Origin: Betaproteobacteria bacterium
Lineage (GTDB): Bacteria; Pseudomonadota; Gammaproteobacteria; Burkholderiales; SG8-41
NCBI GenBank assembly: GCA_947486575.1
Contig: CANKUB010000041.1
Location: 1 to 35,838, forward strand
Length of the DNA: 35,838 nucleotides
Direction of reading: 5' to 3'
The translations under genes and the position numbers were made by a program. Shown one piece after another: positions 20,541 through 35,681 of this stretch. Below the pieces are notes generated by a model. That model did no database searches and was not told where the DNA came from. It saw only the letters and a program-made list of their open reading frames with translations. The stretch's first letter is position 1; every line of letters starts with the position of its first letter.

Positions 20541-20553
20541 TAACTATTTGATT
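20541..20553 (+). promoter_or_regulatory. IHF-consensus-like AT-rich site upstream of aconitase 1
   Basis: TAACTATTTGATT is the reverse complement of an exact IHF consensus (WATCARNNNNTTR). It ends 14 bases before the aconitase ATG at 20568, so it covers the ribosome-binding region, where the only weak Shine-Dalgarno is AAGAG (20557-20561). This position is unusual for an IHF activation site and would suit repression or a leader role. The 170-base gap 20398-20567 otherwise shows no clear promoter hexamers. Confidence 0.25.
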
Positions 20554-20567
20554 TTAAAGAGTTATCT

Positions 20568-23258
20568 ATGACATACGATCCGTTTAAAGCCATCCGTGAA
20601 TTCAAACTCAAATCCGGCAAAACCGGCAAAATGTATTCGTTGGCCGCGCTCGAAGAAGCCGGGCTGGGCAAGACGTCGCGCCTGCCAGTCAGTCTGCGTG
20701 TGGTGCTTGAATCCGTACTGCGCAATTGCGACGGCAAGCGCATCGGCGACGATCGCGTTAAAGAACTCGCAGGCTGGCAACCGAACGCCGAGCGTACGGC
20801 GGAAGTCCCCTTTGTACTCGCTCGCATCATGCTGCAGGATATGGCGGGCTTCCCGGCGCTGAATGACTTTGCCGCCATGCGTGCCGAAGCCAAGCGTCAA
20901 AATTTCGAACCTACCAAAATCGAGCCGCTGGTGCCAGTCGATCTGGTGGTCGATCACTCGGTGGTGATCGACGTACATAACTCGGTTGATGCGCTGCGCA
21001 AGAACATGGAAATCGAGTTTGAACGCAACGGCGAACGTTACACCTTCCTCAAGTGGGCCAAGCAGGCGTTCTCCGGCATCCGCGTGATACCTCCGGGTAA
21101 CGGCATCTGCCATCAGGTTAACCTTGAATACCTGTCGCGCGGCGTGTGGGAAAGAGATGGCGTGTATTACCCTGATTCAACCGTCGGCACCGACTCTCAC
21201 ACCACCATGGTCAACGCCATCGGCGTGCTGGCCTGGGGCGTTGGCGGCATCGAGGCGGAAGCCGGCATGCTGGGCCAGCCCTACTATTTCCTCACGCCTG
21301 ATGTGGTCGGCGTGCATATGAGTGGCAAGCTCAATCCAGGCGTCACCGCTACCGACCTCGTGCTGACGGTCACCGAGCTGCTGCGCAAAACCAAAGTCGT
21401 CAATAAATTCGTCGAGTACTTTGGCGAAGGCGCCGCTTCGCTGTCGCCGACCGACCGCGCCACCGTGGCCAACATGGCGCCCGACTACGGCGCCACCTGC
21501 GGCTTTTTTGCGATCGACGACAAGACGCTTGAGTACTACCGCATGTCGGGTCGCGAAGAGCATTGCGACGCGATTGAAAGTTATCTCAAAGCGCAAGGCA
21601 TGTTTGGCATTCCTAAAAAAGGCGATATCGACTATTCGCAGGTGGTCGAGCTTGATCTTTCCACCGTACGCCCCAGCGTATCAGGCCCCAAGCAACCTGA
21701 GGACCGCATCAATCTCGAAGGCATCAAGAGCCGCTTCACCGAGCTTTACGCAAAGCCCGTTGCCGAAAGCGGCTACAACAAGCCCGCTGCCGATATGGAC
21801 AAGCGTCTGCCCGTGCCCAACAAATCCGGCATGGACGTGGGCAACGGCGATGTGCTGATCGCCGCGATCACGTCCTGCACCAACACCTCCAACCCGTGGG
21901 TGCTGCTGGCCGCTGGTCTGGTTGCCAAGAAAGCTGTCGAAAAAGGCATGAAGCCGCATCCGCGCGTCAAGACATCCATGGCGCCTGGTTCCAAGGTGGT
22001 CACGGCGTATCTCAGGCAGGCAGGCCTGCTGCCTTACCTGGAGCAACTGGGCTTCCAGGTCGTCGCTTACGGTTGCACCACCTGCATGGGTCTTGCGGGA
22101 CCGCTGGATAAAGAACTCGAAGATACCGTAGTCAAGAACGACCTGATCACCGCAGCGGTGCTCTCTGGTAATCGCAATTTCGAAGCGCGCATCCATCAAA
22201 GCCTGAAAGCCAATTTCCTGATGAGCCCGCCGCTGGTCGTCGCCTTCGCGCTTGCCGGAACAGTGCTGAAAAACATGGACACCGATCCCATCGGCAACGA
22301 CAAGGATGGCAAGCCGGTGTTCCTGAAAGACCTGTGGCCCACACCCGCTGAAGTAGATGCCCTGATGAAGTTCGCCACCGACAGCAAGAACTTCAAGCGT
22401 GAATATGGTGATCTTGCGGGTGCCAAGGATCTTTGGGACGCCATTCCCGAAGCCAAGGGCGCGCTGTTCCAGTGGGACCCGAAATCAACTTACATGCTCG
22501 AACCCCCGCTGTTTGAAGGTTTCAAGCGTGAGTTACCCAAAGTCACCGATATCAAAGGCGGTCGCGCGCTCGGCATTTACGGCAACAAGCTGACCACCGA
22601 CCACATCAGCCCGGTAGCGCCCATCCGCAAGGGCACACTGGCAGGTGATTGGCTGATAGCGGCCGGCAGCACGGATTTATCGAGCTTCGGCTCGCGCCGC
22701 ACCAACCACGAAGTCATGGTGCGTGGCGCATTCGCCAACCCGCGCATCAAGAATCTGCTCGCGCCAGGCACTGAGGGCGGCGTCACCATCCATCAACCCA
22801 GCGGCGACAAGATGACGATTTTCGAAGCATCGATGCGTTATCAGAACGTCGACAAGGTGCCCCTGTTTGTTTTCGGCGGCGAAGAATACGGCACCGGCTC
22901 ATCGCGCGACTGGGCGGCCAAGGGCACGCAAATGCTCGGCGTCAAGGTTGTGGTGGCGCGCGGCTACGAGCGCATCCATCGCTCCAACCTCGTCGGCATG
23001 GGCGTGCTGCCATGCCAGTTCAAAGGCGCGGATAGCGTGCAGTCACTGAATATTACGGGCACCGAGTCGTACGATCTGCTGGGCGTGGAAGGCGGTAATC
23101 TGAAACCGCTGCAGGATGTCACGCTGGTGATTCATCGTGCTGATGGCAGCAAGCAAAATGTTACCGTGACGCTGCGTGTGGATTCGCCGATTGAAGTTGA
23201 GTATTTGAAGCACGGCGGCATTCTGCCGTTTGTGTTGCGGGAATTGATGGCGGCGTAA
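20568..23258 (+). CDS. acnA: Aconitate hydratase, AcnA type (paralogue 1)
   Basis: An 896-residue monomeric aconitase of AcnA/IRP1 type. The cluster ligands are C437 in TSCTNTSNP, and C503 and C506 in [32 protein letters not shown] and the swivel-domain [15 protein letters not shown] (arginine in the active site) are all present, and the length is full. The domain order is three cluster domains, a linker near residue 640, then the swivel domain ending [14 protein letters not shown]. The enzyme converts citrate to isocitrate. The residue after TSNP is Trp (W444), where E. coli AcnA has Ser and paralogue 2 has Ala; this lies near substrate-contacting arginines in known structures and could alter specificity. 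It is divergent from the tctB operon and followed by a REPIN-like repeat. Confidence 0.94.
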
Positions 23259-23300
23259 CATACGCTGCTTTGAAGTGAGGGTGCGGACACACACTCTCAC

Positions 23301-23381
23301 TGTCGTTCCCGCGCAGGCGGGAACCCATAACACGGTGCCATAGGGCACATCGCATGGATTCCCGCCTGCGCGGGAATGACA
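23301..23381. repeat. REPIN/MITE-like palindromic element between the two aconitase genes
   Basis: Two 28-base arms, 23301-23328 and 23354-23381, are inverted copies with two mismatches. Each arm is itself palindromic around TTCCCGCGCAGGCGGGAA. The 25-base centre contains a smaller hairpin (GTGCC/GGCAC). The arm sequence is a very common intergenic repeat in proteobacteria (related to Neisseria dRS3-type ATTCCC-N8-GGGAAT). In RNA the whole unit would fold into one long hairpin between the two aconitase messages. Confidence 0.85.
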
Positions 23382-23470
23382 AGTCATAGTTTGTGGTGCT
23401 CCGTGAATTGCCTACATGCTATTTCGTGGAGAAACAACTTCGTTAACCCCTACTACCTGGAGTCCCTTAG

Positions 23471-26170
23471 ATGGCACAAGACACCTTCAAAACCCTGCGC
23501 GATTTCACGCCCTCCCCAGGCAAATCCGGCAAATATCACTCACTAGCCGCACTGGAACAAGCAGGCCTCGGCAAGATCTCCCGCCTGCCGCGCTCTATCC
23601 GCGTGGTACTCGAAGCCCTCGTGCGTCACTGCGACGGCAAGCGCGTGAGCGAAGAACACGTCAAAGCCCTCGCAGCCTGGCAGCCCAACGCCACGCGCAC
23701 CGCAGAAATCCCCTTTGTGGTGGTGCGTATCGTACTTCAGGATTTGATTGGCTTTGGCACCCTTAACGATTTGTCCGCAATGCGCGCAGCGGCAGAACGC
23801 CTCGGCGTGCCGCCGGGCAATATCGAGCCGCTGGTGCCGGTGGATGTGGTGGTCGATCACTCGGTTGAAATCGACGTTTACAACCGGCCCGACGCCGTGC
23901 AGCGCAATCAGGAAATCGAATTCAAGCGCAACGCCGAGCGCTATCGCTTCGTCAAATGGGCGCAAGGCGCCTTCAAGACGGTGCGCGTGGTGCCGCCCGG
24001 CAACGGCATTATTCACCAGATCAACATGGAACATCTGTCACGCGGCGTGTTTGAAAAAGACGGCGTGTGGTTCCCCGACACCGTGTTCGGCACTGACTCG
24101 CACACCACCATGGTCAACGGCATCGGCATCGTAGCATGGGGCGTCGGCGGCATCGAAGCCGAAGCGGGCATGCTGGGCCAGCCCAATGCGTTCCTGACGC
24201 CCGACGTCGTCGGCTGTCACCTGACCGGCAAGCTGCGCGAAGGCGTCACAGCGACTGACCTTGCCTTGACCGTTACCGAACTCATGCGCAAAGCCAAAGT
24301 CGTCGGCAAGTTCGTCGAATTCTTTGGCGAAGGCGCAACTGCGCTGACCGCTGCCGACCGCTGCACCGTTGCCAATATGGCGCCCGAATACGGCGCGACC
24401 ATGGGTTACTTTCCAGTCGATGAAAAAACCATCGAGTATTTCCGCACCACCGGCCGCGAGCCGGAGCAAGTCGCCGCGATTGAAGCGTATTTCAAAGCGC
24501 AAAACATGTTCGGCATGCCGAAGTCCGGTGAAATCGACTACAGCGAATTGATCGCCCTTGATCTCGCCAGCGTCGTACCTTGCCTGTCGGGACCGAAACG
24601 CCCGCAGGATCGTGTCAGCCTGCCCGATCTTGGCCGCGGCTTCGATGCACTGTTCTCCGCACCCACCGACAAAAACGGTTATGCCCGTGCTGCCGACGAC
24701 CTCAATCGCCGCGTGGACAGTGGCCACGCCGATTTTGATGTGGGTCATGGCGACGTGCTGATTGCGTCGATCACGTCCTGCACCAATACGTCGAACCCTG
24801 CGCTGCTGATTGCGGCGGGCTTGTTCGCCAAACGTGCTGTGGAACGCGGGCTCACGATCAATCCGCGCGTCAAAACCTCGCTTGCCCCAGGCTCCAAAGT
24901 GGTTACAGCCTATCTGCGCGATGCTGGGTTATTGGCCCCGCTCGAAAAGCTGGGATTCGGTGTCGTCGCCTACGGCTGCACCACCTGCATGGGCGCTGCG
25001 GGCCCGCTCGACGCCAAGCTCGAAGAGGCCGTAGTGTCGAAAGATTTAGTCACCGCCGCTGTGCTCTCCGGTAATCGCAATTTCGAAGCCCGCGTGCATG
25101 CCAACCTGCGTGCGAACTACCTCGCCAGCCCCGCGCTGGTGGTGGCTTACGCGATTGCAGGCACCGTGCGCACTGATCTGCTGACGGATCCGCTGGGCAA
25201 GGGCGCAGATGGCAAGCCGGTGTTCCTGAAAGACCTGTGGCCCACCGATGCAGAAGTCGCGTCACTCTTGAAATTCGCCGCCAATGCCGAACACTTCCGT
25301 CGCGAATACGGCGACCTGTCGGGTAACAAAGCCTTGTGGGATGCGATTCCCACGGTCGAAGGCGCAATCTATAAATGGGATGAAAAATCCACCTTTATCA
25401 AGGAACCGCCGTTCTTTGAAGGCGTTACCCGCACACCCGGCAAAGTCACTGACATCGTTGGTGCTCGCGCGCTGGCGATACTCGGCGATTCAATCACCAC
25501 CGATCACATCAGCCCCTCCACCAAAATTCGTCCAGGTACGCCCGCTGGCAAGTGGCTGGAGCCGTTCAAAGATCATCCGCCGTCCGAGTGGGGCCACTTC
25601 GGTGTGCGCCGCTGCAACCATGAACTGATGGTGCGCGGCACCTTTGCCAATGTGCGCCTGCGCAACATGGTCGCCCCCGGTACCGAAGGCCCCATCACCA
25701 AGGTACAGCCCACCGGCGAACAAATGACCATTTTTGAAGCCAGCGAAATCTACCGCGCCAAGAACACACCGCTGGTAATCTTCGGCGGCGACGACTACGG
25801 CATGGGTTCCTCGCGTGACTGGGCCGCGAAAGGCGTGCAACTACTCGGCGTCAGAGCGGTCATTGTCAAAAGCTTTGAGCGCATCCACCGCGCCAACCTG
25901 ATCGGCATGGGCGTGTTGCCTTTGCAATTCAAAGCGGGTGAAAGCGTGGCATCGCTGGGCATCAATGGCACCGAGAGCTTCACCATCGAAGGCATGAACG
26001 GTGGCAACGTCAAGCCACTACAGGACGTTGCGATGGTGATTACGCGTGCTGACGGTTCAACTCAGCGCGTGACGTTAACGCTGCGTATCGACACTGGCAT
26101 CGAAGTGGATTACCTGAAGCACGGCGGCATTCTGCCGTATGTGCTGCGAGATTTGGTGGCTGCTGCGTAG
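23471..26170 (+). CDS. Aconitate hydratase, AcnA type (paralogue 2)
   Basis: An 899-residue AcnA-type aconitase collinear with paralogue 1 and, by eye, well over half identical. Cluster ligands occupy the same positions: C437 in [10 protein letters not shown]503 and C506 in [22 protein letters not shown] and HGGILPYVLRDLVAAA complete the swivel domain. The position after TSNP is Ala (A444), not Trp. The substrate-side linker around residues 690-720 (HPPSEWGHFGVRRCNHELM) also differs from paralogue 1. GGAG eight bases upstream supports the ATG at 23471. The two genes are in tandem on one strand but separated by 212 bases with a long palindrome. One may be the housekeeping enzyme and the other act on a citrate analogue. 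A zeta-toxin-like gene starts only 27 bases after its stop. Confidence 0.92.
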   Translation: MAQDTFKTLRDFTPSPGKSGKYHSLAALEQAGLGKISRLPRSIRVVLEALVRHCDGKRVSEEHVKALAAWQPNATRTAEIPFVVVRIVLQDLIGFGTLNDLSAMRAAAERLGVPPGNIEPLVPVDVVVDHSVEIDVYNRPDAVQRNQEIEFKRNAERYRFVKWAQGAFKTVRVVPPGNGIIHQINMEHLSRGVFEKDGVWFPDTVFGTDSHTTMVNGIGIVAWGVGGIEAEAGMLGQPNAFLTPDVVGCHLTGKLREGVTATDLALTVTELMRKAKVVGKFVEFFGEGATALTAADRCTVANMAPEYGATMGYFPVDEKTIEYFRTTGREPEQVAAIEAYFKAQNMFGMPKSGEIDYSELIALDLASVVPCLSGPKRPQDRVSLPDLGRGFDALFSAPTDKNGYARAADDLNRRVDSGHADFDVGHGDVLIASITSCTNTSNPALLIAAGLFAKRAVERGLTINPRVKTSLAPGSKVVTAYLRDAGLLAPLEKLGFGVVAYGCTTCMGAAGPLDAKLEEAVVSKDLVTAAVLSGNRNFEARVHANLRANYLASPALVVAYAIAGTVRTDLLTDPLGKGADGKPVFLKDLWPTDAEVASLLKFAANAEHFRREYGDLSGNKALWDAIPTVEGAIYKWDEKSTFIKEPPFFEGVTRTPGKVTDIVGARALAILGDSITTDHISPSTKIRPGTPAGKWLEPFKDHPPSEWGHFGVRRCNHELMVRGTFANVRLRNMVAPGTEGPITKVQPTGEQMTIFEASEIYRAKNTPLVIFGGDDYGMGSSRDWAAKGVQLLGVRAVIVKSFERIHRANLIGMGVLPLQFKAGESVASLGINGTESFTIEGMNGGNVKPLQDVAMVITRADGSTQRVTLTLRIDTGIEVDYLKHGGILPYVLRDLVAAA

Positions 26171-26197: not shown

Positions 26198-26788
26198 ATG
26201 CCTGATGTCGTCGTTATTGCCGGGCCCAACGGGTCCGGCAAATCAACGACTGCACCAAAACTGCTTCGTGACACTCTACGGGTTGAGGAATTTATCAACG
26301 CCGATGTCATTGCCAGCGGACTTTCTGCATTCGCGCCGGAACGTGTAGCATTTCCGGCAGGCCGCATTATGCTGCGGCGGATGAAAAAATTAGCCGAGCA
26401 GCAGAAAAATTTCGCCCTTGAATCAACTTTGTCCAGTCGGAGCCTTGCACCCTGGCTCTCCAAACTACACGCTGACGGATATGTCATTCACCTGATTTTT
26501 CTGTGGTTGGCTGACGCAAACCTCGCCACCAAACGTGTCGCTGAGCGCGTCAACGCAGGCGGTCACAACATCCCGGAAGAAATTGTACGCAGACGATATA
26601 CTCGCAGCATCAGCAATTTCTTCAATATTTATCGCCCGCTTGCAGACTCATGGCTCATGCTGGACAATTCATTGCAGGATTCGCCCAAACCGGTCGCCTG
26701 GCGAAATGTTGGCGGGCCGATTCAAATTGTTAAAAGCGGACCTTGGATCAAACTGCGAGCACAATATGAAAAGAACGTCTTCCAGTAA
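26198..26788 (+). CDS. Zeta-toxin-family kinase (COG4185-like P-loop ATPase)
   Basis: A 196-residue P-loop protein. The Walker A motif is GPNGSGKST (9-17). FINADVIASGLS (D36) and FALESTLSSRS (E75) are the zeta-toxin substrate-binding and catalytic segments, and GGHNIPEEIVRRRYTRSISN (121-140) supplies the arginine-rich lid. Zeta toxins phosphorylate UDP-N-acetylglucosamine and block wall synthesis; many chromosomal relatives are uncharacterised. No epsilon antitoxin precedes it. Instead a small basic protein overlaps its 3' end by 23 bases. It follows aconitase 2 by 27 bases with no evident promoter or terminator between, so it may be read from the aconitase promoter. No strong ribosome site is visible. 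Confidence 0.88.
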   Translation: MPDVVVIAGPNGSGKSTTAPKLLRDTLRVEEFINADVIASGLSAFAPERVAFPAGRIMLRRMKKLAEQQKNFALESTLSSRSLAPWLSKLHADGYVIHLIFLWLADANLATKRVAERVNAGGHNIPEEIVRRRYTRSISNFFNIYRPLADSWLMLDNSLQDSPKPVAWRNVGGPIQIVKSGPWIKLRAQYEKNVFQ

Positions 26789-27080: not shown

Positions 27081-27166
27081 GTAGGATGGGCTGACGAAGG
27101 AAGCCCAACTTCTACCGGTGCATCACTCGCGAACGTTGGGCTTCACTACTCCCAGCACCAACCTAC
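27081..27166. repeat. Inverted-repeat element 2 (GTAGGATGGG...CCAACCTAC)
   Basis: GAAGCCCAAC (27100-27109) and GTTGGGCTTC (27135-27144) form a perfect 10-bp inverted repeat, and the outer ends GTAGGATGG / CCAACCTAC are inverted with one mismatch. Such GTAGGTTGGG-ended units are frequent MITE-like repeats. The right end overlaps the stop codon of the MBL hydrolase gene (TAG, 27163-27165). With element 1 it fills the whole 181-base gap between two convergent genes and may serve as a bidirectional terminator. Confidence 0.6.
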
Positions 27167-28020
27167 AACATCCGCCACTGCGCACCCGCCTCCACCGCCC
27201 GCCCATCGCGCGCAAGCTTGAGCAGATGCCCGTGCAAGGAGCGGCGAGCAGGCACATGCAGCTTGGGTGATACGTCGTCGTAAACCACCGGCACGAGTTC
27301 ATCGAGCGTTGCTGTTTTAGCCGGGGCCTTGGTCAGCGCATCGACTACCTTTTGCTCGCGCTTCAGACGGTGTGCAATAATTTTAGTGACTTCTTCGCGC
27401 GGCGTTTCGATCAAGTGGCCGTGGCCTGGCGCAAACGCGGTGATGTTGTAGTTGCCCAACTTATTGAGCGAGGCAAAATAGTCAAACATGTCGCCATCGG
27501 GCGGCGATATCACCACGGTGGAGCCTTGCATCACGTGGTCGCCGGTGAACAACAAACCCGCGCCTTCGAGCAGATAACACAGGTGGTTGGACGCGTGCCC
27601 CGGCGTGTGTATGGCTCGGATTTTGAATGCGCCGCAATCCACCACGTCGTCATTGACCAGCGCGTGATCCGGCTTGAATTCGGTGTCCTGCCGTCCATCC
27701 TGCGGCACTTTGCCGAAGCCGTGAATCAGTGCGCCGGTGGCTTTTGCAACAGCGCGCGATGACGGCGAGTGATCCTGATGCGTGTGGGTACAGAAAATCC
27801 AGCGTAGCCGCTTGCCACTGTGCTTGATCAGCAACTCGGCATGTGAGGCAATCTCCGGCCCCGGATCGATCATCGCCAGATCCCCAGAGTCATCGCCGAC
27901 GATGTAGGAATTGGTGCCCGGCCCGGTCATCATGCCAGGGTTGGGGGCGGTGATGCGCTGCACGCGTGGATGGATGCGAACGAGTTCGCCGGGGATAATG
28001 GTACTGGGGGTGGTTGCCAT
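27163..28020 (-). CDS. Metallo-beta-lactamase-fold hydrolase (glyoxalase II/LACTB2-like)
   Basis: A 285-residue MBL-fold enzyme. After GMMTGPGTNSYIVGDDSGDL comes the metal motif HTHQDH in FCTHTHQDHSPSS, then HTPGHASNHLCYLLEGAGLL, FTGDHVMQG and FAPGHGHLI, which supply the remaining metal ligands. A C-terminal winged-helix-like tail (ELVPVVYDDVSPKLHVPARR) is typical of LACTB2-like proteins, which hydrolyse RNA or thioesters. It follows the NUDIX gene by 30 bases on the same strand; this pair is common in betaproteobacteria. Its TAG stop lies within inverted-repeat element 2, so the last residues (WRML) may reflect the insertion. Confidence 0.88.
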   Translation of the reverse strand: MATTPSTIIPGELVRIHPRVQRITAPNPGMMTGPGTNSYIVGDDSGDLAMIDPGPEIASHAELLIKHSGKRLRWIFCTHTHQDHSPSSRAVAKATGALIHGFGKVPQDGRQDTEFKPDHALVNDDVVDCGAFKIRAIHTPGHASNHLCYLLEGAGLLFTGDHVMQGSTVVISPPDGDMFDYFASLNKLGNYNITAFAPGHGHLIETPREEVTKIIAHRLKREQKVVDALTKAPAKTATLDELVPVVYDDVSPKLHVPARRSLHGHLLKLARDGRAVEAGAQWRML

Positions 28021-28050: not shown

Positions 28051-28872
28051 CTAAAACTTGCCTCTGCCCGCCTCAGTCCCGGCCTCTTCATAACCGGGTT
28101 GACCCGGCAGCACGCGCAGGCCATCCTTGTTAATGCGCGGCTCGATCACGGGGATGTCACCCAGCGCCTGCATGCAGGTCATCAGCGAGGCGACGCTGTC
28201 GTGCTCCGCAAACAGCCGCAGCGTGTTTACCGTGGGTGTGCGCATGTCGAATTTTTTCTGCTTATGCAGACTCAAGGCTTCTGCCGGACGCACCCACAGG
28301 TGGTTGATGGTTTCGCGGTTGTCGTGCAGCGGCTTTTGCGATGGCGGCGCAGCCGCCACAAAGAACCGGGTGTCGTAGCGGCGCGGCGCGCCTGCGGGCG
28401 TGATCCAGTGGCTGAAATAAGTGATGTGCTGCAACGGCAGGCGCAAGCCTTCATCTTTGAGCATTTCGCTTAACGGATGTTCGCCGTGTTCAACGCGGCT
28501 GCGATAAGCGTGAAACCGCGCCGCGCGCACTTCATCATCCAGCGTCACAATTTCATCTTTGTCGTTGCACGCGAGCAAAATGCCCGCCTCTTCGAACGAC
28601 TCACGTATTGCGGCAACCCAGTAGGCGAGACCGCCGCTGACAAGACCCAGCTTGCGGCTGGCATCAACATCGTTGAGCCCCGTGCACAATGCTGCAATAT
28701 CCTCGCTGCCATCATGCGCATCCACCGCGCCGCCGGGGAACACGTACGCGCCAGGCACGAACACCGATTGAAAATTACGCTGCACCATCAGCACTTCAAA
28801 GCCCTGTGGCGAATCGCGCACCAGCGTAACGGTCGCGGCTGGGCGCGGAATCAGCTTTTCTGTCATAACCAT
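28051..28872 (-). CDS. NUDIX hydrolase (NUDT19-like)
   Basis: A 273-residue NUDIX protein. Residues 10-40 (RPAATVTLVRDSPQGFEVLM, then FVPGAYVFPGGAVD) precede the NUDIX helix AIRESFEEAGILL, matching REUxEExGU, with a long insert between the PGG and the helix as in NUDT19-type CoA diphosphatases. It would cleave a nucleoside diphosphate linked to another group, possibly acyl-CoA. ATG 28870-28872 is used; ATG 28864-28866 two codons on is equally good, and neither has a ribosome site. The start region overlaps one copy of the TAA-N2-ATTTG motif. It is upstream of the MBL hydrolase gene in a two-gene unit. The C-terminal tail (GTEAGRGKF) is low complexity. Confidence 0.85.
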   Translation of the reverse strand: MVMTEKLIPRPAATVTLVRDSPQGFEVLMVQRNFQSVFVPGAYVFPGGAVDAHDGSEDIAALCTGLNDVDASRKLGLVSGGLAYWVAAIRESFEEAGILLACNDKDEIVTLDDEVRAARFHAYRSRVEHGEHPLSEMLKDEGLRLPLQHITYFSHWITPAGAPRRYDTRFFVAAAPPSQKPLHDNRETINHLWVRPAEALSLHKQKKFDMRTPTVNTLRLFAEHDSVASLMTCMQALGDIPVIEPRINKDGLRVLPGQPGYEEAGTEAGRGKF

Positions 28873-28975
28873 TTGTTTATATTGATTAAATTTTAATTCA
28901 ATGCAATAGCCATCAGTACCAATACATCTGTGGCGAAATAACCATGCCTTATGTTACCGCGCCCGCACCGTTTCA

Positions 28976-29935
28976 TTACAATTTGAGGCCCGCTGCACGC
29001 GCGACATCCTGCCACTTGGCAATCTCCGCCTGCAAATGACGCAGCAACGCCTCAGGCGTGCTGTGCCGTGCCTCAGCCCCCTGATTGGCAAACTGCGTTT
29101 GAACCGCTGGCATAGCCAGCGCCGCTGCCAGCGCGCCATTCAGTTGTTGCACGATGGCGGCAGGTAATCGCGCCGGGCCCAGCACCGCATGCCAGTTGTC
29201 CGCTTCGGAATTTTGCAAACCCGCTTCGGCCATGGTTGGCACTTCCGCTGCGGCGGGCGACCGTTTGGAAGCCGTCACCGCCAACGCACGCAAGCGCCCG
29301 GAATTCACATGCGGCAGCGCAGGTGGCATGCCTGAAAAGTACGCGTGCGATTCGCCGCCCAGCACGGCCGTGTTGGCTGGCGCACCCCCTTTGTATGGCA
29401 CGTGCACCAGCTGCGTGCCGGTGCGCAATTTGAACAACTCCGCTGCCAGATGCTGCGGGCTGCCATTGCCTACCGACGCGTAATTGAGTTGCCCCGGTTT
29501 TTCTTTCGCCAGGCGAATCAGATCCTGCACGGATTTCACTGGCAGACCAGGGTGCACTACGAGTATCAGCGGCACCGACGCCACCATAGCCACCGGTGTG
29601 AAATCCTGCGGCACCCTGAACGCCAGCGCGGGATACACACTGGGGCTTATTGCCACCGATACCGTCGCCATAAACAAGGTGTAACCATCGGGTGCCGCCC
29701 GCGCGACGATCTCCGCGCCGATATTGCTGGTGGCGCCAGGACGATTGTCGACAATGAGCGGCTGGCCGAGCTTGTCATTCAGCGGCTGCGCCAGAAGACG
29801 CGCAAGTATGTCGGGCGCGCCGCCCGCCGCGAAACCAACCACCATGCGCAGCGGTTTGGTGGGGTACGTCTGCGCCTGAATCTGGGCCGAGACCGACAAA
29901 TACAGCACTATTAAAATAAATATCTTACGCAACAT
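28976..29935 (-). CDS. Bug/TctC-family periplasmic solute receptor (copy 4)
   Basis: A 319-residue receptor starting at ATG 29933-29935 with GAGAGG close upstream; the frame also opens at 29980 inside the preceding gene. After signal peptide MLRKIFILIVLYLSVSAQIQAQ come TYPTKPLRMVVGFAAGGAPD, IVDNRPGATSNIGAEIVARA, APDGYTLFMA and LVHVPYKGGAPANTAVLGG. It is clearly more distant from copies 2 and 3 than they are from each other. It begins 8 bases after the thermonuclease-like gene, which overlaps the molybdopterin hydroxylase gene, so it probably feeds that enzyme. The ligand is unknown; aromatic or heterocyclic carboxylates would fit a hydroxylase. Confidence 0.9.
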   Translation of the reverse strand: MLRKIFILIVLYLSVSAQIQAQTYPTKPLRMVVGFAAGGAPDILARLLAQPLNDKLGQPLIVDNRPGATSNIGAEIVARAAPDGYTLFMATVSVAISPSVYPALAFRVPQDFTPVAMVASVPLILVVHPGLPVKSVQDLIRLAKEKPGQLNYASVGNGSPQHLAAELFKLRTGTQLVHVPYKGGAPANTAVLGGESHAYFSGMPPALPHVNSGRLRALAVTASKRSPAAAEVPTMAEAGLQNSEADNWHAVLGPARLPAAIVQQLNGALAAALAMPAVQTQFANQGAEARHSTPEALLRHLQAEIAKWQDVARAAGLKL

Positions 29936-29943
29936 CGCCTCTC

Positions 29944-30579
29944 TCATCGCCGCTTGCCCGGTGCACAGAGATTTTCGCATGGCACACCGTCGCCATTTTT
30001 ATCCAGCGTCTTGATACGACACTGGGTAAAGTAAAAGCGCGCTTCGTCACACGTGACCATCTGCGAACAATAGCGCTTTTTGCCGCAGGGACTCGACGAC
30101 GCGTCGATTTCCCGCGTCGTGCCATGCGCTTTGCGAAACTCCCACGGCGGCGTTGGGTTTGCGCTCGCCCACAAACCACGCCGCGCGCTCTGTGCTTCAA
30201 CCTGTAATGCAATCAACGCCTTGTCGGAATGATAGTGTGAATACTCCCACGCCATGCCGCGCCGCAGTTGCTCTTCGTTCACATTGACGCGGCCTGCCTG
30301 TATCAACGCGACCACACGGCCATAGTCATCCACCGTTTTAGTGGTTACGCTCACATCCTTGCGCAATACCATGGCAGACAGCGCAGCGCGCGATGCCGGT
30401 CCGAAATCCTGCAATTTTTCCGGCGCGTCTATACCGGCAAGGCGGACCGTCGTTTTCTTGCCCGCCTGTTGCACGATAATCGTATCGCCATCGAGTACAG
30501 CGATGACGTGGGCGCTGAAGGTTTCTGCGCGAGGCGCTGCAACGCTCAGTAAAAATAGTAGTGCGGCAACGATTCTCAC
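29944..30579 (-). CDS. Secreted thermonuclease-like protein with C-terminal Excalibur domain
   Basis: A 211-residue protein starting with GTG (30577-30579), overlapping the upstream gene's TGA. Residues 1-18 are a signal peptide. The staphylococcal-nuclease (OB-fold) domain shows VIAVLDGDTIIVQ, VRLAGIDAPE (catalytic Arg), and DDYGRVVALI (second Arg), followed by LRRGMAWEYSHY. Residues about 165-205 form a Cys-rich Excalibur-type calcium-binding motif, CDEARFYFTQCRIKTLDKNG then DGVPCENLC. It should cut extracellular or periplasmic nucleic acid in a calcium-dependent way. Its place inside a hydroxylase-receptor operon is unusual and may be fortuitous. Confidence 0.87.
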   Translation of the reverse strand: MRIVAALLFLLSVAAPRAETFSAHVIAVLDGDTIIVQQAGKKTTVRLAGIDAPEKLQDFGPASRAALSAMVLRKDVSVTTKTVDDYGRVVALIQAGRVNVNEEQLRRGMAWEYSHYHSDKALIALQVEAQSARRGLWASANPTPPWEFRKAHGTTREIDASSSPCGKKRYCSQMVTCDEARFYFTQCRIKTLDKNGDGVPCENLCAPGKRR

Positions 30580-32948
30580 AACGCAACTTTACCCAGCGCC
30601 TGCAATATCCGCTCCGGCGTAAACGGCTGATCGTTGACGCGCGCCTTGAAGGGTTTCAAGGCATCGTTAATGGCGTTCATGACTGCCGCTGGCGCACCCG
30701 CGACACCTGCCTCACCTGCACCGCGTGCGCCGAGTTCCGACACCCGCGTCGGCGAATGCGTGTGGCCCACTTCGATATCCGGCATTTCACCCGCCATCGG
30801 CACCAGGTATTCCGCCAGTGTGCCGTTGAGCAACTGCCCTTGGTCGCTGTAGATGCACTGCTCGAATAACGCAGCGCCGATGCCCTGCACCACGCCGCCA
30901 CGGATCTGCTCATCCACCAGCAATGGATTCACCACGGTGCCCGCATCATCGATCACCCAATGCTTGAGCACTTTGACAAAGCCGGTTTCAGGATCCACTT
31001 CGACGTAGCTTCCATGCGCGCCATTGGTAAAAATACCGCTGTAGTGTTTTTGCGCGTAACTGCGTGTCACCGTCAGCTCGGGCTGATAATCCCTGGGCAC
31101 CTGCTCAGTGCGAAAATACGCGGTGCGCGCCACTTCTTCGAGCGAGATTTTCACCACGCCGGTTTGCGCATCCACCACATTGCCGTTGCGAATATCCAGC
31201 ATCGACGCTTCTGATTCCATCAGCCGCGCAACGAAATTCAGGATGTTTGCCTTCAACGCTTTGCCGGTTTGAAACACGGCTTCGCCGCCGATGCCGGTAC
31301 CACGTGAACCCCAATTGCCGCCGCCATAAGGCGTGGTTTCGGTATCCCCCATGATCACCCGCACGTTCTCTACTGCTACGCCTACGCAGGTGGCTGCCAC
31401 CTGTGCCGCAACAGCGTGTGCGCCCTGGCCAAACTCCGTCAGACTGGTCGCCACCGTAATGCCGCCAGTAGGCATCAAGCGTATGGTGCAGGCATCCTGC
31501 GACGCAATCGACACGCCGCCTTGCCCGTAGGTGGCCGACGACGACATGGAATTTTCAATGAACATCGCCAGCCCGATGCCGCGATACACACCCTTCGCGC
31601 GCAATGCCTGTTGCTCACGCCGAAGCTCATCATAACCCATTGTTTTTAACAACAATTCCAATGATGCATGCTGAGAAAGTTTTTCAAACGTTGCGCCACT
31701 CAAACAGGTGCGCGGGTAAGCGTCGTCGGGCGCGAGATTGCGTTTACGAAAGGCAGCGGGATCCATGCCCACCGCGTCGGCAGCGAGATCGACGATGCCC
31801 TCGGTGATTGCGCACACCACCGGGTGTCCCACCGCGCGATATTGACCATACATGCCCTTGTTCTGAAACACCGCACGTGCGCGCCCTCGGTAAGCCTGCG
31901 GCATGTAAGGCGCACCGGTGAGATTGGTGACGTGAATACCTTCGTTCGCACCACCGCGCGGATAACCGGAATACGGACCGATGCCATAGATGTCATCCAC
32001 CTCGAACGCCAGCATATCACCCGCCTTGGAGACAGCACAGCGCACCGTCGCACGATGCCCGCGTGCATGAAAATCCGACACAAACGATTCCAGGCGGTCG
32101 GCCACGAATTTCACTGGACGCCCGGTGAGCAGCGCCGCTGCTGCCGTAGCCATGTCGTCGCCGTAGGTGTGAATCTTGAGGCCAAACGCGCCACCGACAT
32201 CGGGCGCAATCACCCGCACGTTGTTTTCCGGCAGACCAAAGTGATGCGCGAGTATCCATTGCATCATGTACGGCACCTGCGTGGAGTGCCACACCGTCAT
32301 TTGTGCATCAGCAGCGTTGTAATCGACGAGAATGGTGCGCGATTCCAGCGACACCGGCGTATGACGCCCGGTGGTAAACGTGGCCTCAACCACATGATCG
32401 GCTGCGGCAAACACATCATCCACCTTGCCGTTATCGATGAAGCGTTCCACGCACAGATTGCTGCCGAGTTCAGGATGTATCAGCGGCGTTGCGGCATCCA
32501 GCGCGGTTTCGATATCAGTCACGGCAGGCAGCGCTTCGTACTCCACCTCAATGTATTGCAGGGCATCTTCAGCCAACGCCCGCGTTTGCGCCACCACCAT
32601 CGCCACTGGCTCCCCCTGCCAGCGTGCGATATCCACCGCCAACGGCAATTGCGGCGCAGACTGCATTCCCTTGATGTGTTTCAACACACCGACGTACGGC
32701 TTGCACATCGCGGCCACGTCAGCCCCTGTGATCACGCGTACCACGCCCGGCACCCGCACGGCAGCGGCAATATCCAGTCGCGTGATACGCGCATGCGCAT
32801 GCGGGCTGCGCAACACGGCTGCGTGCAGCATGCGCGGCAATTGGAGGTCATCTACGTATTGCCCGCGCCCGGCGAGCAGGCGTTTGGCGTTGGCGCGCGG
32901 GAGGGAGGCGCCGATGTAGCCGCTATTGTTTGATTCTTGTGATTTCAA
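30576..32948 (-). CDS. Xanthine dehydrogenase-family molybdopterin-binding subunit (aldehyde oxidase/CoxL-like), orphan
   Basis: A 790-residue large subunit of a molybdenum hydroxylase. RLLAGRGQYVDDL (24-35) starts the a/b hammerhead domain; DVGGAFGLK (250-258), GQGAHAVAAQVAA and the active-site motif GAGEAGVAG (about 743-751, catalytic Glu) are present. The motif that is usually YRGAGRPE reads YRAVGHP (370-376), so pocket chemistry may differ. The frame starts at TTG (32946-32948) with no good ribosome site and no nearby ATG alternative. Such enzymes need 2Fe-2S and FAD subunits, and none is adjacent: upstream is MazEF (25 bases), downstream a nuclease and a Bug receptor. Either the partners are encoded elsewhere or electrons go to a different acceptor. 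Confidence 0.87.
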   Translation of the reverse strand: MKSQESNNSGYIGASLPRANAKRLLAGRGQYVDDLQLPRMLHAAVLRSPHAHARITRLDIAAAVRVPGVVRVITGADVAAMCKPYVGVLKHIKGMQSAPQLPLAVDIARWQGEPVAMVVAQTRALAEDALQYIEVEYEALPAVTDIETALDAATPLIHPELGSNLCVERFIDNGKVDDVFAAADHVVEATFTTGRHTPVSLESRTILVDYNAADAQMTVWHSTQVPYMMQWILAHHFGLPENNVRVIAPDVGGAFGLKIHTYGDDMATAAAALLTGRPVKFVADRLESFVSDFHARGHRATVRCAVSKAGDMLAFEVDDIYGIGPYSGYPRGGANEGIHVTNLTGAPYMPQAYRGRARAVFQNKGMYGQYRAVGHPVVCAITEGIVDLAADAVGMDPAAFRKRNLAPDDAYPRTCLSGATFEKLSQHASLELLLKTMGYDELRREQQALRAKGVYRGIGLAMFIENSMSSSATYGQGGVSIASQDACTIRLMPTGGITVATSLTEFGQGAHAVAAQVAATCVGVAVENVRVIMGDTETTPYGGGNWGSRGTGIGGEAVFQTGKALKANILNFVARLMESEASMLDIRNGNVVDAQTGVVKISLEEVARTAYFRTEQVPRDYQPELTVTRSYAQKHYSGIFTNGAHGSYVEVDPETGFVKVLKHWVIDDAGTVVNPLLVDEQIRGGVVQGIGAALFEQCIYSDQGQLLNGTLAEYLVPMAGEMPDIEVGHTHSPTRVSELGARGAGEAGVAGAPAAVMNAINDALKPFKARVNDQPFTPERILQALGKVAL

Positions 32949-32973
32949 AATGAAAATTCGTGCGATGCGGCGA

Positions 32974-33318
32974 TTACCCAGCCACCAAGCCCATCAACCG
33001 GCCCAAGGCATCATCGATAACCACCTGCGGCGCGCGCTCCACTTTTTTTGCCTGACGTGCATTCAAGTCAAGCATGCGAATTTTATTCACCAAGGCGACG
33101 CCTTGCGTTTTGCAACCTGTGCCGGTCAGCGATACGGCAAAACCTGCGTATCGCGCAAAGTCTCCACCTTGCGTGATCGGCGCCACCAGCACATCACCCA
33201 GCCGGTTGAAATCCCTGGTGGTCAGCACCAGCGCCGGACGCGCTGCACCACGCATCTCGTGCCCGACCACTGGGTCAAGACTGACGCGAACAATATCGCC
33301 ACGATCAAATACCGCCAT
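32974..33318 (-). CDS. mazF: MazF/PemK-family endoribonuclease toxin
   Basis: A 114-residue PemK/MazF-fold toxin. FDRGDIVRVSLDPVVGHEMR at the N-terminus, RPALVLTTRDFNRLG, VLVAPITQGG and GVALVNKIRMLDL follow the family pattern, including the RPALVL strand and the basic/Thr residues of the RNase site. MazF toxins cleave mRNA at short single-stranded motifs. I start it at ATG 33316-33318, which shares one base with the antitoxin stop (TGATG); the longer frame to 33357 runs into the antitoxin gene. It looks full-length and functional. The hydroxylase gene follows after 25 bases. Confidence 0.9.
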   Translation of the reverse strand: MAVFDRGDIVRVSLDPVVGHEMRGAARPALVLTTRDFNRLGDVLVAPITQGGDFARYAGFAVSLTGTGCKTQGVALVNKIRMLDLNARQAKKVERAPQVVIDDALGRLMGLVAG

Positions 33319-33569
33319 CACCAAACCTCTTGACCGGCGGGCCGCGCCACATCCCATAGCGCCATGTCAACCGGAGGGGGTGCTTTCGGGTCGCACTGGG
33401 CCAGCATATCGGCGAGCGAAAACTTCCGCTTGGGCGACAGCGTTATCGTATGCTCGTCCGTCGTTTTCAGAATCATCGACTGACCCGCCTTAATGCCCAG
33501 ATTTTTCAACACCGCTGGCGGCAAAACCGCTACCGTACTGTTGCCGTACTTACGTAGCACTACTTCCAT
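33318..33569 (-). CDS. mazE: MazE/PemI-family antitoxin with AbrB-like domain
   Basis: An 83-residue antitoxin. Residues 1-45 form the MazE/AbrB swapped-hairpin DNA-binding domain (VVLRKYGNSTVAVLPPAVLK, LGIKAGQSMILKTT), and the acidic tail (ADMLAQCDPKAPPPVDMALW) would wrap the toxin. It neutralises MazF and autoregulates the operon. The stop overlaps the toxin ATG by one base. The 90-base gap upstream (33570-33659) is the probable promoter region and separates it from the glycosyltransferase gene; no clear operator was found. Confidence 0.9.
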   Translation of the reverse strand: MEVVLRKYGNSTVAVLPPAVLKNLGIKAGQSMILKTTDEHTITLSPKRKFSLADMLAQCDPKAPPPVDMALWDVARPAGQEVW

Positions 33570-33659
33570 CGCCTCACCTCACTGTTTAGCATCGTTGAAC
33601 ATAGTTTATTGCCTGCCGTAAACGCTGTCAATCAGTGTTGAACATCTGGAATGGGCGAT

Positions 33660-34880
33660 TTACAACGTCCTCGCTGCAAGCCGTTCAATCAACCGCAACT
33701 GCTGCGGCAGACAAATACCCGCAAGATCGTAACACTCCACTGACGTAGCGCGCGCTGCCGTGCGTAGATGTTCATATTTTAACGGTTGCCCCAGCGCATC
33801 GATCACCCTATCAGCCAGCGTACGATGATCAAAAAAATCCACCAGCAGTCCGTTCTTGCCGTGGGTTATAACCTCCTCCACCGGCGCGGTTGCACTGCCC
33901 ACCACCAAACAGCCCGCACTCATGGCTTCGATACAGCTCCAGCCCAGCACAAACGGATAGGTTAAATAGACGTGACATCTTGAAACCTGCAACACGTTCA
34001 GATAGGCGCCGTACGGAATACGCCCAAGAAAATGCACGCGATTCAGGTCAATGTCCGCTTTGACTTCATCCAGAAACATCTGCTTCCAGGTGTGACCTTC
34101 GGGCGCCTTTGGCCCGTATGACACTTCGTCGCCACCGACGATCAGCACGGTAGCGTCAGGCCGTTCGCGCAGTATGTGCGGCAGCGCCCGCATGAATTGA
34201 TGATAGCCGCGATACGGCTCCAGATTACGATTGACAAAGGTGAGCACCTCATCGCCAGCGCGCAGGGTTTTGCCATCCACAGTAATCGTCGCTGCGGTAT
34301 TGGGGCGCACGATTTGCGTATCGATGCCATCGAACACCACGCTGATGCGCTCACGATACGCGCGCGGCATGGTGCTGTGCTGAAACTGGGTGGGCGTGAT
34401 ACCCCAATCCATGGCGTCCATCGTCAACAGCAGATTGGCATTCTTGGTGCGTACTCTGGCGGCGTTGCCGATGTCGTTGGCGGCGAACTCGGCATCGAAA
34501 TTTACATCAAGTCCGCGCACCGCGTAAAAAAATTCCAGCAGCGCCAGCAACTTCGCATCCGGCCATACGTCTTTCAGAAACAGGCTCTCGCCCCAGCCGG
34601 GGTTGGCGACGATCACGTCCGGTTTGTAACCGGATTGCCTCATGCGCACCGCGGCGGCTGCACACGCGTCACCGCGTATCAGTTTGGTTTCAAAATCCGC
34701 CGCCAGCGGATGAATATCGCGCGTGGAACCACGCCCAATCGGATACCGCACCATCGGAATCTGCGGCAAGCCCGCGCCATCAATCGCCAGCGCACGCACG
34801 TCATGTCCCGCGTTGGCCAGCGCAGGCGCCAGATGCTTGAATTGCCCCGGAAAATTCTGATGGATGAAGAGCAGATTCAT
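33660..34880 (-). CDS. Glycosyltransferase, GT4-like GT-B fold
   Basis: A 406-residue glycosyltransferase. The N-terminal Rossmann domain starts NLLFIHQNFPGQFKHLAPAL and includes PDVIVANPGWGESLFLKDVW; FFYAVRGLDVNFDAEF is typical of the subgroup. The C-terminal donor-binding domain shows FVNRNLEPYRGYHQFMRALP, VLIVGGDEVSYG, VHFLGRIPYGAYLNVL and the EAMSAGCLVVGSATAPVEEV segment that contacts the nucleotide sugar. Acceptor and donor are unknown. No neighbouring polysaccharide genes are visible, so it stands alone apart from the alpha/beta hydrolase 39 bases upstream. It is cytoplasmic, with no signal or membrane segment. Confidence 0.87.
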   Translation of the reverse strand: MNLLFIHQNFPGQFKHLAPALANAGHDVRALAIDGAGLPQIPMVRYPIGRGSTRDIHPLAADFETKLIRGDACAAAAVRMRQSGYKPDVIVANPGWGESLFLKDVWPDAKLLALLEFFYAVRGLDVNFDAEFAANDIGNAARVRTKNANLLLTMDAMDWGITPTQFQHSTMPRAYRERISVVFDGIDTQIVRPNTAATITVDGKTLRAGDEVLTFVNRNLEPYRGYHQFMRALPHILRERPDATVLIVGGDEVSYGPKAPEGHTWKQMFLDEVKADIDLNRVHFLGRIPYGAYLNVLQVSRCHVYLTYPFVLGWSCIEAMSAGCLVVGSATAPVEEVITHGKNGLLVDFFDHRTLADRVIDALGQPLKYEHLRTAARATSVECYDLAGICLPQQLRLIERLAARTL

Positions 34881-34919
34881 GCACTGACGGTCATTATCGT
34901 AATTATTTGTTTTTATTGA

Positions 34920-35681
34920 TTATTTCATGAAGTCCAGCATCAACGCATTGACCTCATCCGCTGCTTCGTACATCACCCAATGCCCCGCTCCCTCAATGCT
35001 GTCGATGCGTACATCCGACCTGGCGGCGCGGCATTCATCGACGCGGGGTTGAATATTCGGTATGCACAAGGCATCGGCGGCGCCCCAGATAATCTGCACA
35101 CCGCAGGTCATTTTTTGCAGTGCCTGCGTCATCAAATCTGGCGTCAGGCTGATGCGCCGACCGTCGTAACGCGTGCGCAGCACATTCGTCAGATGCAGGT
35201 CTACCGCTTCTTCGGTCACTTTGAGCGGGTCTGCGATCATCATCACGCGCAGGTTATGCCCCAGCACTTCGCGCATCAAGGCGTCGCCTTCACTGGCCTT
35301 CGGAATTCTTTTCATGCCGAGATCGGGCTGTTTGCCGCCAAAGCCACCGGGGCCCATCAACGACAGCTTGTGCACGCGCGTGCCTAATTGCGCCGCGCAT
35401 AACGCGGCAATCGCACCGCCCAGCGAAAATCCCGCAAGCCTGAACGCGCCCGTGGGCACAATGTCGTTTAACCCCGCCATCACCAGTGCAACAAACGCTT
35501 CGCACGGCATTTCCTTCGATACCCAGGGCGATTCGCCGTAGCCCGGCATATCGAGCGCGTGTACCGTGTAGTGCTGTGCCAACGCATCAAAATTGCGATC
35601 CCAGTGGTTCACGGAACCCATGCCGCCATGGATCAACACCAGTGGCGGGCCGTTGCCTGCCGATTTGCTGTAAAGCTTCAT
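34920..35681 (-). CDS. Alpha/beta-fold hydrolase
   Basis: A 253-residue alpha/beta hydrolase close to meta-cleavage-product hydrolases and related esterases. LVLIHGGMGSVNHW gives the oxyanion loop, GFSLGG (84-89) the nucleophile S86, WGAADAL the acid D203, and GAGHWVMYE the histidine H234. A cap of about residues 112-180 separates the core halves. The triad is intact. Substrate is not predictable; relatives act on aromatic ring-cleavage products, lactones or esters. It precedes the glycosyltransferase on the same strand with 39 bases between, in an AT-rich spacer carrying another copy of the TAA-N2-ATTTG motif. Confidence 0.88.
   Translation of the reverse strand: MKLYSKSAGNGPPLVLIHGGMGSVNHWDRNFDALAQHYTVHALDMPGYGESPWVSKEMPCEAFVALVMAGLNDIVPTGAFRLAGFSLGGAIAALCAAQLGTRVHKLSLMGPGGFGGKQPDLGMKRIPKASEGDALMREVLGHNLRVMMIADPLKVTEEAVDLHLTNVLRTRYDGRRISLTPDLMTQALQKMTCGVQIIWGAADALCIPNIQPRVDECRAARSDVRIDSIEGAGHWVMYEAADEVNALMLDFMK

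Follow-up and report, generated by a model that had tools for sequence, protein, structure and literature searches.

The window analysed here, the whole 35,838-nucleotide contig C41 of a Betaproteobacteria genome (G000; 5.35 Mb in 282 contigs), encodes the large, molybdenum (Mo)-binding subunit (L) of a xanthine-oxidase-family hydroxylase. Neither the medium subunit (M), which carries flavin adenine dinucleotide (FAD), nor the small 2Fe–2S subunit (S) is encoded beside it. We consider it likely that this orphan L functions as a catalytic subunit and forms its enzyme in trans with M and S from a paralogous operon, located in G000 on contig C50. In relatives of the window's genome, both halves of such a split, an L without M–S and an M–S without L, occur together in one genome: seven retain a contiguous M–S without an intact L, and in two more the loss is read from the absence of L.

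The L gene has no internal stop and encodes a complete protein, in whose single chain Pfam detects the three domains of a xanthine-oxidase-family large subunit, Ald_Xan_dh_C (100 bits), MoCoBD_1 (221 bits) and MoCoBD_2 (260 bits). The catalytic glutamate region (G.GE.G) reads GAGEAG at residue 743, and the glutamate is conserved in every alignment row that covers the C terminus (41 of 42). The initial annotation tentatively placed the start at TTG, and this type of start is normal for the orthologues: TTG or GTG stands at codon −12 to −8 at each of the 13 orthologous loci in which the start can be read, one of which (L020) additionally has an ATG. The same annotation gave the letters of the motif correctly as YRAVGHP, but took them for a deviation from YRGAGRPE. 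An unusual or decayed motif can be rejected, as YRAVGHP is found in 39 and YRGVGHP in 1 of 40 aligned subfamily rows, complete M–S–L operons included; five remoter relatives, at 44–47% identity, carry YRAVGAP or YRGVGAP. Two named identities were also rejected. L scores 540 bits against a cut-off of 790 for glyceraldehyde dehydrogenase alpha (NF041018), and 492 and 428 bits against cut-offs of 950 and 991 for the NCBIfam models of aerobic carbon monoxide dehydrogenase (CoxL). The active-site cysteine loop of CoxL is AYRCSFR, where L has YRAVGHP.

That M and S are missing beside L had been noted from the start and holds within the window, where neither turned up when all open reading frames (ORFs) of at least 50 amino acids were searched by blastp with ten S and eight M queries from G000. 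We collected 42 relatives of L from species genomes. None of the 13 at 84–90% identity has M or S beside L, with the upstream side lying off the contig in one (L041); these orthologues are 84–90% identical in 12 further members of the window's genus, one of them cut by a contig end, and 86% identical in G023. By contrast, 26 of the other 29 relatives (44–73% identity) have both M and S beside L. The exceptions are L048 (68%), which lacks M–S, and L032 and L045, which are contig-cut. Some of the metagenome assemblies (L010, L011, L015–L018) are titled Bordetella parapertussis, a label that looks wrong, as they belong to the window's genus or lie close beside it.

The initial annotation had reasoned that partners at this locus in close relatives would mark L as a decayed copy. 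They occur only in relatives at most 73% identical. That remoter relatives have partner genes now gone from the window locus would fit a functionless L decaying after its operon lost M–S. Against such a remnant stand the high identity among the orthologues, a ratio of non-synonymous to synonymous change (pN/pS) of about 0.09–0.16 for the orphan L and the intact catalytic motifs; we judge decay to be most improbable. Instead, the orphan L is under purifying selection in the window's genus (g1) and in the neighbouring group g3.

Linkage of L and M is the rule outside the family. In a 399-genome sample of the order, with few candidates scored per genome, a close L match was found in 23 genomes outside the family, a close M in 18 and both in 16; at the same cut-offs, seven of these genomes have L only and two M only. 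In 15 of the 16 with both, a single contig carries L and M, separated by roughly the length of an S gene; the exception (G232) has them on two contigs. The ancestral state at the orphan locus was probably M–S–L. As a separate observation, seven alphaproteobacterial M–S–L relatives (L030, L031, L035, L043, L044, L047 and L049) share a neighbouring gene of one cluster, whose sole annotated member is PuuE/allantoinase-like (121 bits, below cut-off). Neighbours from FAD-monooxygenase and cyclase-family clusters each accompany four such loci, with TRAP transporter genes nearby. These neighbours suggest N-heterocycle breakdown, in organisms too distant for the function to be transferred to the window.

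The window's genome contains a complete paralogous M–S–L operon on contig C50, with an L 58–59% identical to the orphan L, so that M and S partners are available at a non-adjacent locus. Identity to the lost partners is 68% for the C50 S and at most 51% for nine further S, out of 17 S matches in G000; for the C50 M it is 49%, and at most 39% for seven further M, out of nine M matches. The initial annotation proposed looking for lone M and S genes elsewhere in the genome. In G000 itself all nine M matches adjoin an L, one pair across a contig overlap: an apparently lone M–S on C227 is a contig-break artefact that joins the start of C119 through 149 identical bases, the two contigs being one assembly-broken M–S–L locus. 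The proposed search succeeds in the seven relatives with a contiguous M–S that lacks an intact L, this M–S being of the type nearest to the lost partners.

Across 74 genomes of the window's family, an orphan-type L without adjacent M–S is found in 15, namely 13 of the 14 members of the window's genus, G023 and G077, and a complete M–S–L of the orphan type in 8. The C50-type M is present in all 15 genomes with the orphan L and in none of the 8 with the complete operon (naive Fisher test, 2e-6). Each of the 15 has exactly one close M, and it is of the C50 type. Within the genus the two go together: 13 members have the orphan L as well as the C50-type M, and the remaining one (G086) has neither. 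Two further genomes, G070 and G078, have C50-type L and M and no orphan-type L; in two others without a close M, the C50-type L sits at a contig start (G052) or is a 200-residue piece (G076).

The state of the catalytic gene at the C50-type locus varies. With 14 candidates scored per genome, six of the 15 orphan-L genomes have an intact C50-type L (G000, G023, G085, G087 and G091, and G090 apparently across a contig break), one has a broken copy and in eight none was found. A contiguous M–S without intact L is seen in G084, G089, G080, G082, G083, G088 and G077. Scars of the deleted L C terminus follow S in G083 (about 37 residues), G077 (about 51 residues) and G080 (about 11 residues, this shortest one judged by eye), and in G088 the C50-type L is reduced to fragments with stops. 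Cofactor motifs persist in the retained partners, FAD motifs in all 14 M and Fe–S cysteine motifs in 13 of 14 S, the remaining one being contig-cut. In G084 and G080, each with seven M matches, the C50-type M alone has no L beside it. A second M–S without visible L is found in G082 (contig C16), and likewise in G088 (contig C102).

In an L tree built by a quick method, the orphan L of g1 and g3 form one group (14 rows, support 100), and L048 of G077 falls apart from it, next to the complete L046 (support 80). From this placement, M–S was lost about twice at the orphan locus, once in g1 with g3 and once in G077. Mapped on the same tree, the intact and lost states of the C50-type L require six changes, five in the g1/g3 clade plus G077; when branches below a support of 80 are collapsed, five changes suffice in total, as G082 and G083 could share one loss. 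This puts the losses of the C50-type L at five or six. In the M tree, the retained M of 14 genomes group with those from the C50-type operons in G070 and G078 (support 98); the M of G090 is outside this tree and is 74–80% identical to that of C50. Because the retained M goes with the paralogue, the original M–S was lost rather than moved. Displacement of the original M–S is rejected on two further counts: the only close M of each orphan-L genome is of the C50 type, and a search of the sequence upstream of the orphan L at 14 loci revealed no remnants of the original M or S, the only strong matches, at L048, being to the S gene of another operon.

Between related genomes that lack the C50-type L, pN/pS is 0.235–0.265 for M, 0.09–0.26 for S and 0.09–0.12 for the orphan L; these pairs (among G084, G089 and G081, and G080 with G092) assume that L was lost before the split, the M tree places G081 elsewhere and the S of G081 and G092 are partial. 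Medians over all pairs differ little between L-less and L-bearing genomes, at 0.30 versus 0.31 for M and 0.19 versus 0.165 for S.

We propose that M (FAD) and S (2Fe–2S) would be supplied by the C50-type operon and that the orphan L would join them in trans, a meeting of the products of two loci that we infer from sequence comparison. Dependence of the orphan L on the C50-type M–S could later have opened the way to repeated loss of the C50-type L. On this reading, the window's genome would have one M–S shared by two L subunits, and 9 of the 15 genomes would build a single, split enzyme from an L and an M–S encoded at separate loci. Judging from the family, the enzyme would hydroxylate an aromatic or N-heterocyclic ring in the cytoplasm, with water as the oxygen source and electrons passing from Mo to 2Fe–2S, FAD and an acceptor. 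Alternatively, the orphan L could act alone or with an unrelated electron acceptor, as the several other lone L genes in these genomes might suggest. We know of no xanthine-oxidase-family member that turns over without the 2Fe–2S relay, and a solitary L would leave unexplained why the C50-type M–S was kept after its own L had been lost five or six times; a solo enzyme is therefore very unlikely.

Several points weigh against assembly in trans. The first concerns the window's own genome, which does not show the split: its C50-type L is intact and the operon complete, and sharing there is inferred from the relatives. The records of those relatives are mostly titled as metagenome-assembled genomes, and contig ends limit some of the losses. 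Only 780 bases of contig remain after S in G080; the contigs of G081 (62% complete) and G092 stop within S, and loss there means that the C50-type L was not found elsewhere. In G083, one of the 15 orphan-L genomes, the contig does not extend upstream of L, and in G028 (73% complete) L is contig-cut and a close M of either type is absent. As M–S was lost only about twice at the orphan locus, the contrast of 15 with 8 genomes does not amount to 23 independent points. The S tree has poor resolution and fails on its own to bring all C50-type S together, and several L-less genomes (G084, G082, G081 and G077) have long branches for M or S, which could mean slow decay. Nor has the orphan L clearly converged on the C50-type L, which it matches in 5 of 66 diagnostic columns, versus 1–4 of 66–75 in six other lineages.

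Further lone L genes, three in G084 and six in G080, could also use the C50-type M–S. They are the ground for the alternative that this M–S serves a different lone L (for example, those on C155, C152 or C127) and that the orphan L uses another M–S or several. Among the matches listed, which do not include every lone L, those outside the C50 and orphan types are at most 37% identical to the C50-type L, as opposed to 58–59% for the orphan L, and such a pairing leaves aside the co-occurrence of orphan L and C50-type M across the 14 genus members; we regard it as unlikely. More broadly, the M–S of the genus might be a free-standing electron-transfer module for several stand-alone L of differing specificity and location, a tentative and rather doubtful extension. 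L genes, lone or in tandem, that lack an M–S of their own were seen on C155 and C149 of G084, on C152, C127 and C134 of G080 and on C72 and C121 of G000.

The surroundings of the orphan L (Table 1) bear on its history. L is solitary and runs in the same direction as a nuclease and a receptor gene, as first described. The nuclease is staphylococcal-nuclease-like (PF00565, 74 bits against a cut-off of 21) and overlaps L through GTGA, by 4 bases (30576–30579) rather than the 3 initially counted. The same GTGA closes L at 12 of the 14 orthologous loci, with the nuclease start there read in the window only. The nuclease adjoins L in 12 of 13 g1/g3 loci with downstream sequence, and was found neither beside L in complete M–S–L relatives nor at the orphan locus L048. 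A functional tie to L is thus not borne out, and the nuclease is probably a functionally unrelated passenger in the same transcript.

The receptor belongs to the Bug/TctC family (PF03401, 246 bits against a cut-off of 27). Its ORF (28976–29980) has internal starts, of which 29935 gives the spacing of 8 bases past the nuclease stop proposed earlier, and 29947 (ATGA, a 4-base overlap with that stop) is another possible start. The pairing of receptor and hydroxylase, also proposed earlier, is old, as a Bug gene at 55–62% identity directly follows L in the complete M–S–L relatives L021, L023, L024 and L046; it has often been lost, with 8 of 13 g1/g3 loci that include downstream sequence lacking the orthologous receptor or having another gene in its place. 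The receptor may import the substrate of the hydroxylase. On the other side, the place where M–S would be expected is taken by a glycosyltransferase, the next gene upstream in 10 of 12 clade relatives with upstream sequence (not seen in L015 and L019); together with the NUDIX and metallo-beta-lactamase-fold genes, it makes up a neighbourhood common to most close relatives. The mazEF-type pair has no blastp match in the 42 related loci and occurs in the window only. A search of 28800–35000 found one promoter-like site (33631–33603, before mazE), against 2.7 expected by chance, so that the site is at chance level and says nothing for or against separate promoters of the three genes. Elsewhere in the window, two tandem aconitase-type genes (20544–26170), 64% identical, are followed by a zeta-toxin/AAA-like gene (26198–26788).

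Table 1 Features around the orphan large-subunit gene, in window positions
Feature	Position	Strand	Basis
Orphan large (Mo-binding) subunit L of a xanthine-oxidase-family hydroxylase, 790 amino acids, TTG start	30576..32948	-	Pfam domains, orthologues, pN/pS, conserved motifs
Thermonuclease-like protein (SNase + Excalibur), GTG start	29944..30579	-	Domains; overlaps L by GTGA
Bug/TctC periplasmic receptor	28976..29947 (alternative starts 29935, 29980)	-	PF03401
NUDIX protein, downstream, common neighbourhood	28051..28872	-	Domain and relatives' loci
Metallo-beta-lactamase-fold protein, downstream, common neighbourhood	27163..28020	-	Domain and relatives' loci
Glycosyltransferase upstream of L	33660..34880	-	Domain and relatives' loci
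Alpha/beta hydrolase upstream of glycosyltransferase	34920..35681	-	Common to L009, L010, L013, L017
mazEF-type toxin–antitoxin pair between glycosyltransferase and L	32974..33569 (33318-33569 + 32974-33357)	-	PF02452, PF04014

Mo hydroxylases of this kind are normally tight L–M–S operons, and a lone L is easily dismissed as broken. Partner loss at one locus combined with catalytic loss at a paralogous one is a natural experiment on exchangeable subunits. If the pairing in trans is true, annotation based on gene neighbourhood would miss such enzymes, and M–S could be studied as a shared module. Reciprocal loss between paralogous Mo-hydroxylase operons did not come up in the literature searched, which comprised titles and abstract openings, with most subscription journals outside it.

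Among solved structures, the best relative of L is the large subunit of quinoline 2-oxidoreductase (PDB 1t3q, chain B; 460 bits over residues 11–785). The YR.VG loop and the catalytic glutamate region align, with YRGVGFT in place of the YRAVGHP of L; the likeness is one of sequence, not of demonstrated substrate. CoxL belongs to the same family (430 bits to PDB 8uem), but its cysteine loop is missing from L. A possible parallel in gene arrangement is the ketone dehydrogenase KdhLMS of Arthrobacter nicotinovorans (PDB 7dqx; 332 bits), presented in a passage of PMC8305194 as an L/M/S heterotrimer. A figure legend in PMC10494377 gives the order kdhL, pnh, kdhMS for the nicotine cluster of Paenarthrobacter, from which kdhL seems not to adjoin kdhMS. 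As opposed to the window's system, both parts lie in one catabolic cluster, and the passages concerned give no sign of a paralogous operon. The subfamily also includes the complete betaproteobacterial M–S–L–Bug operons L021, L023, L024 and L046, in which L is 66–73% identical to the orphan L, carries the same motif and is followed by Bug. They differ in having M–S adjacent to L, and their four genomes have no C50-type M.

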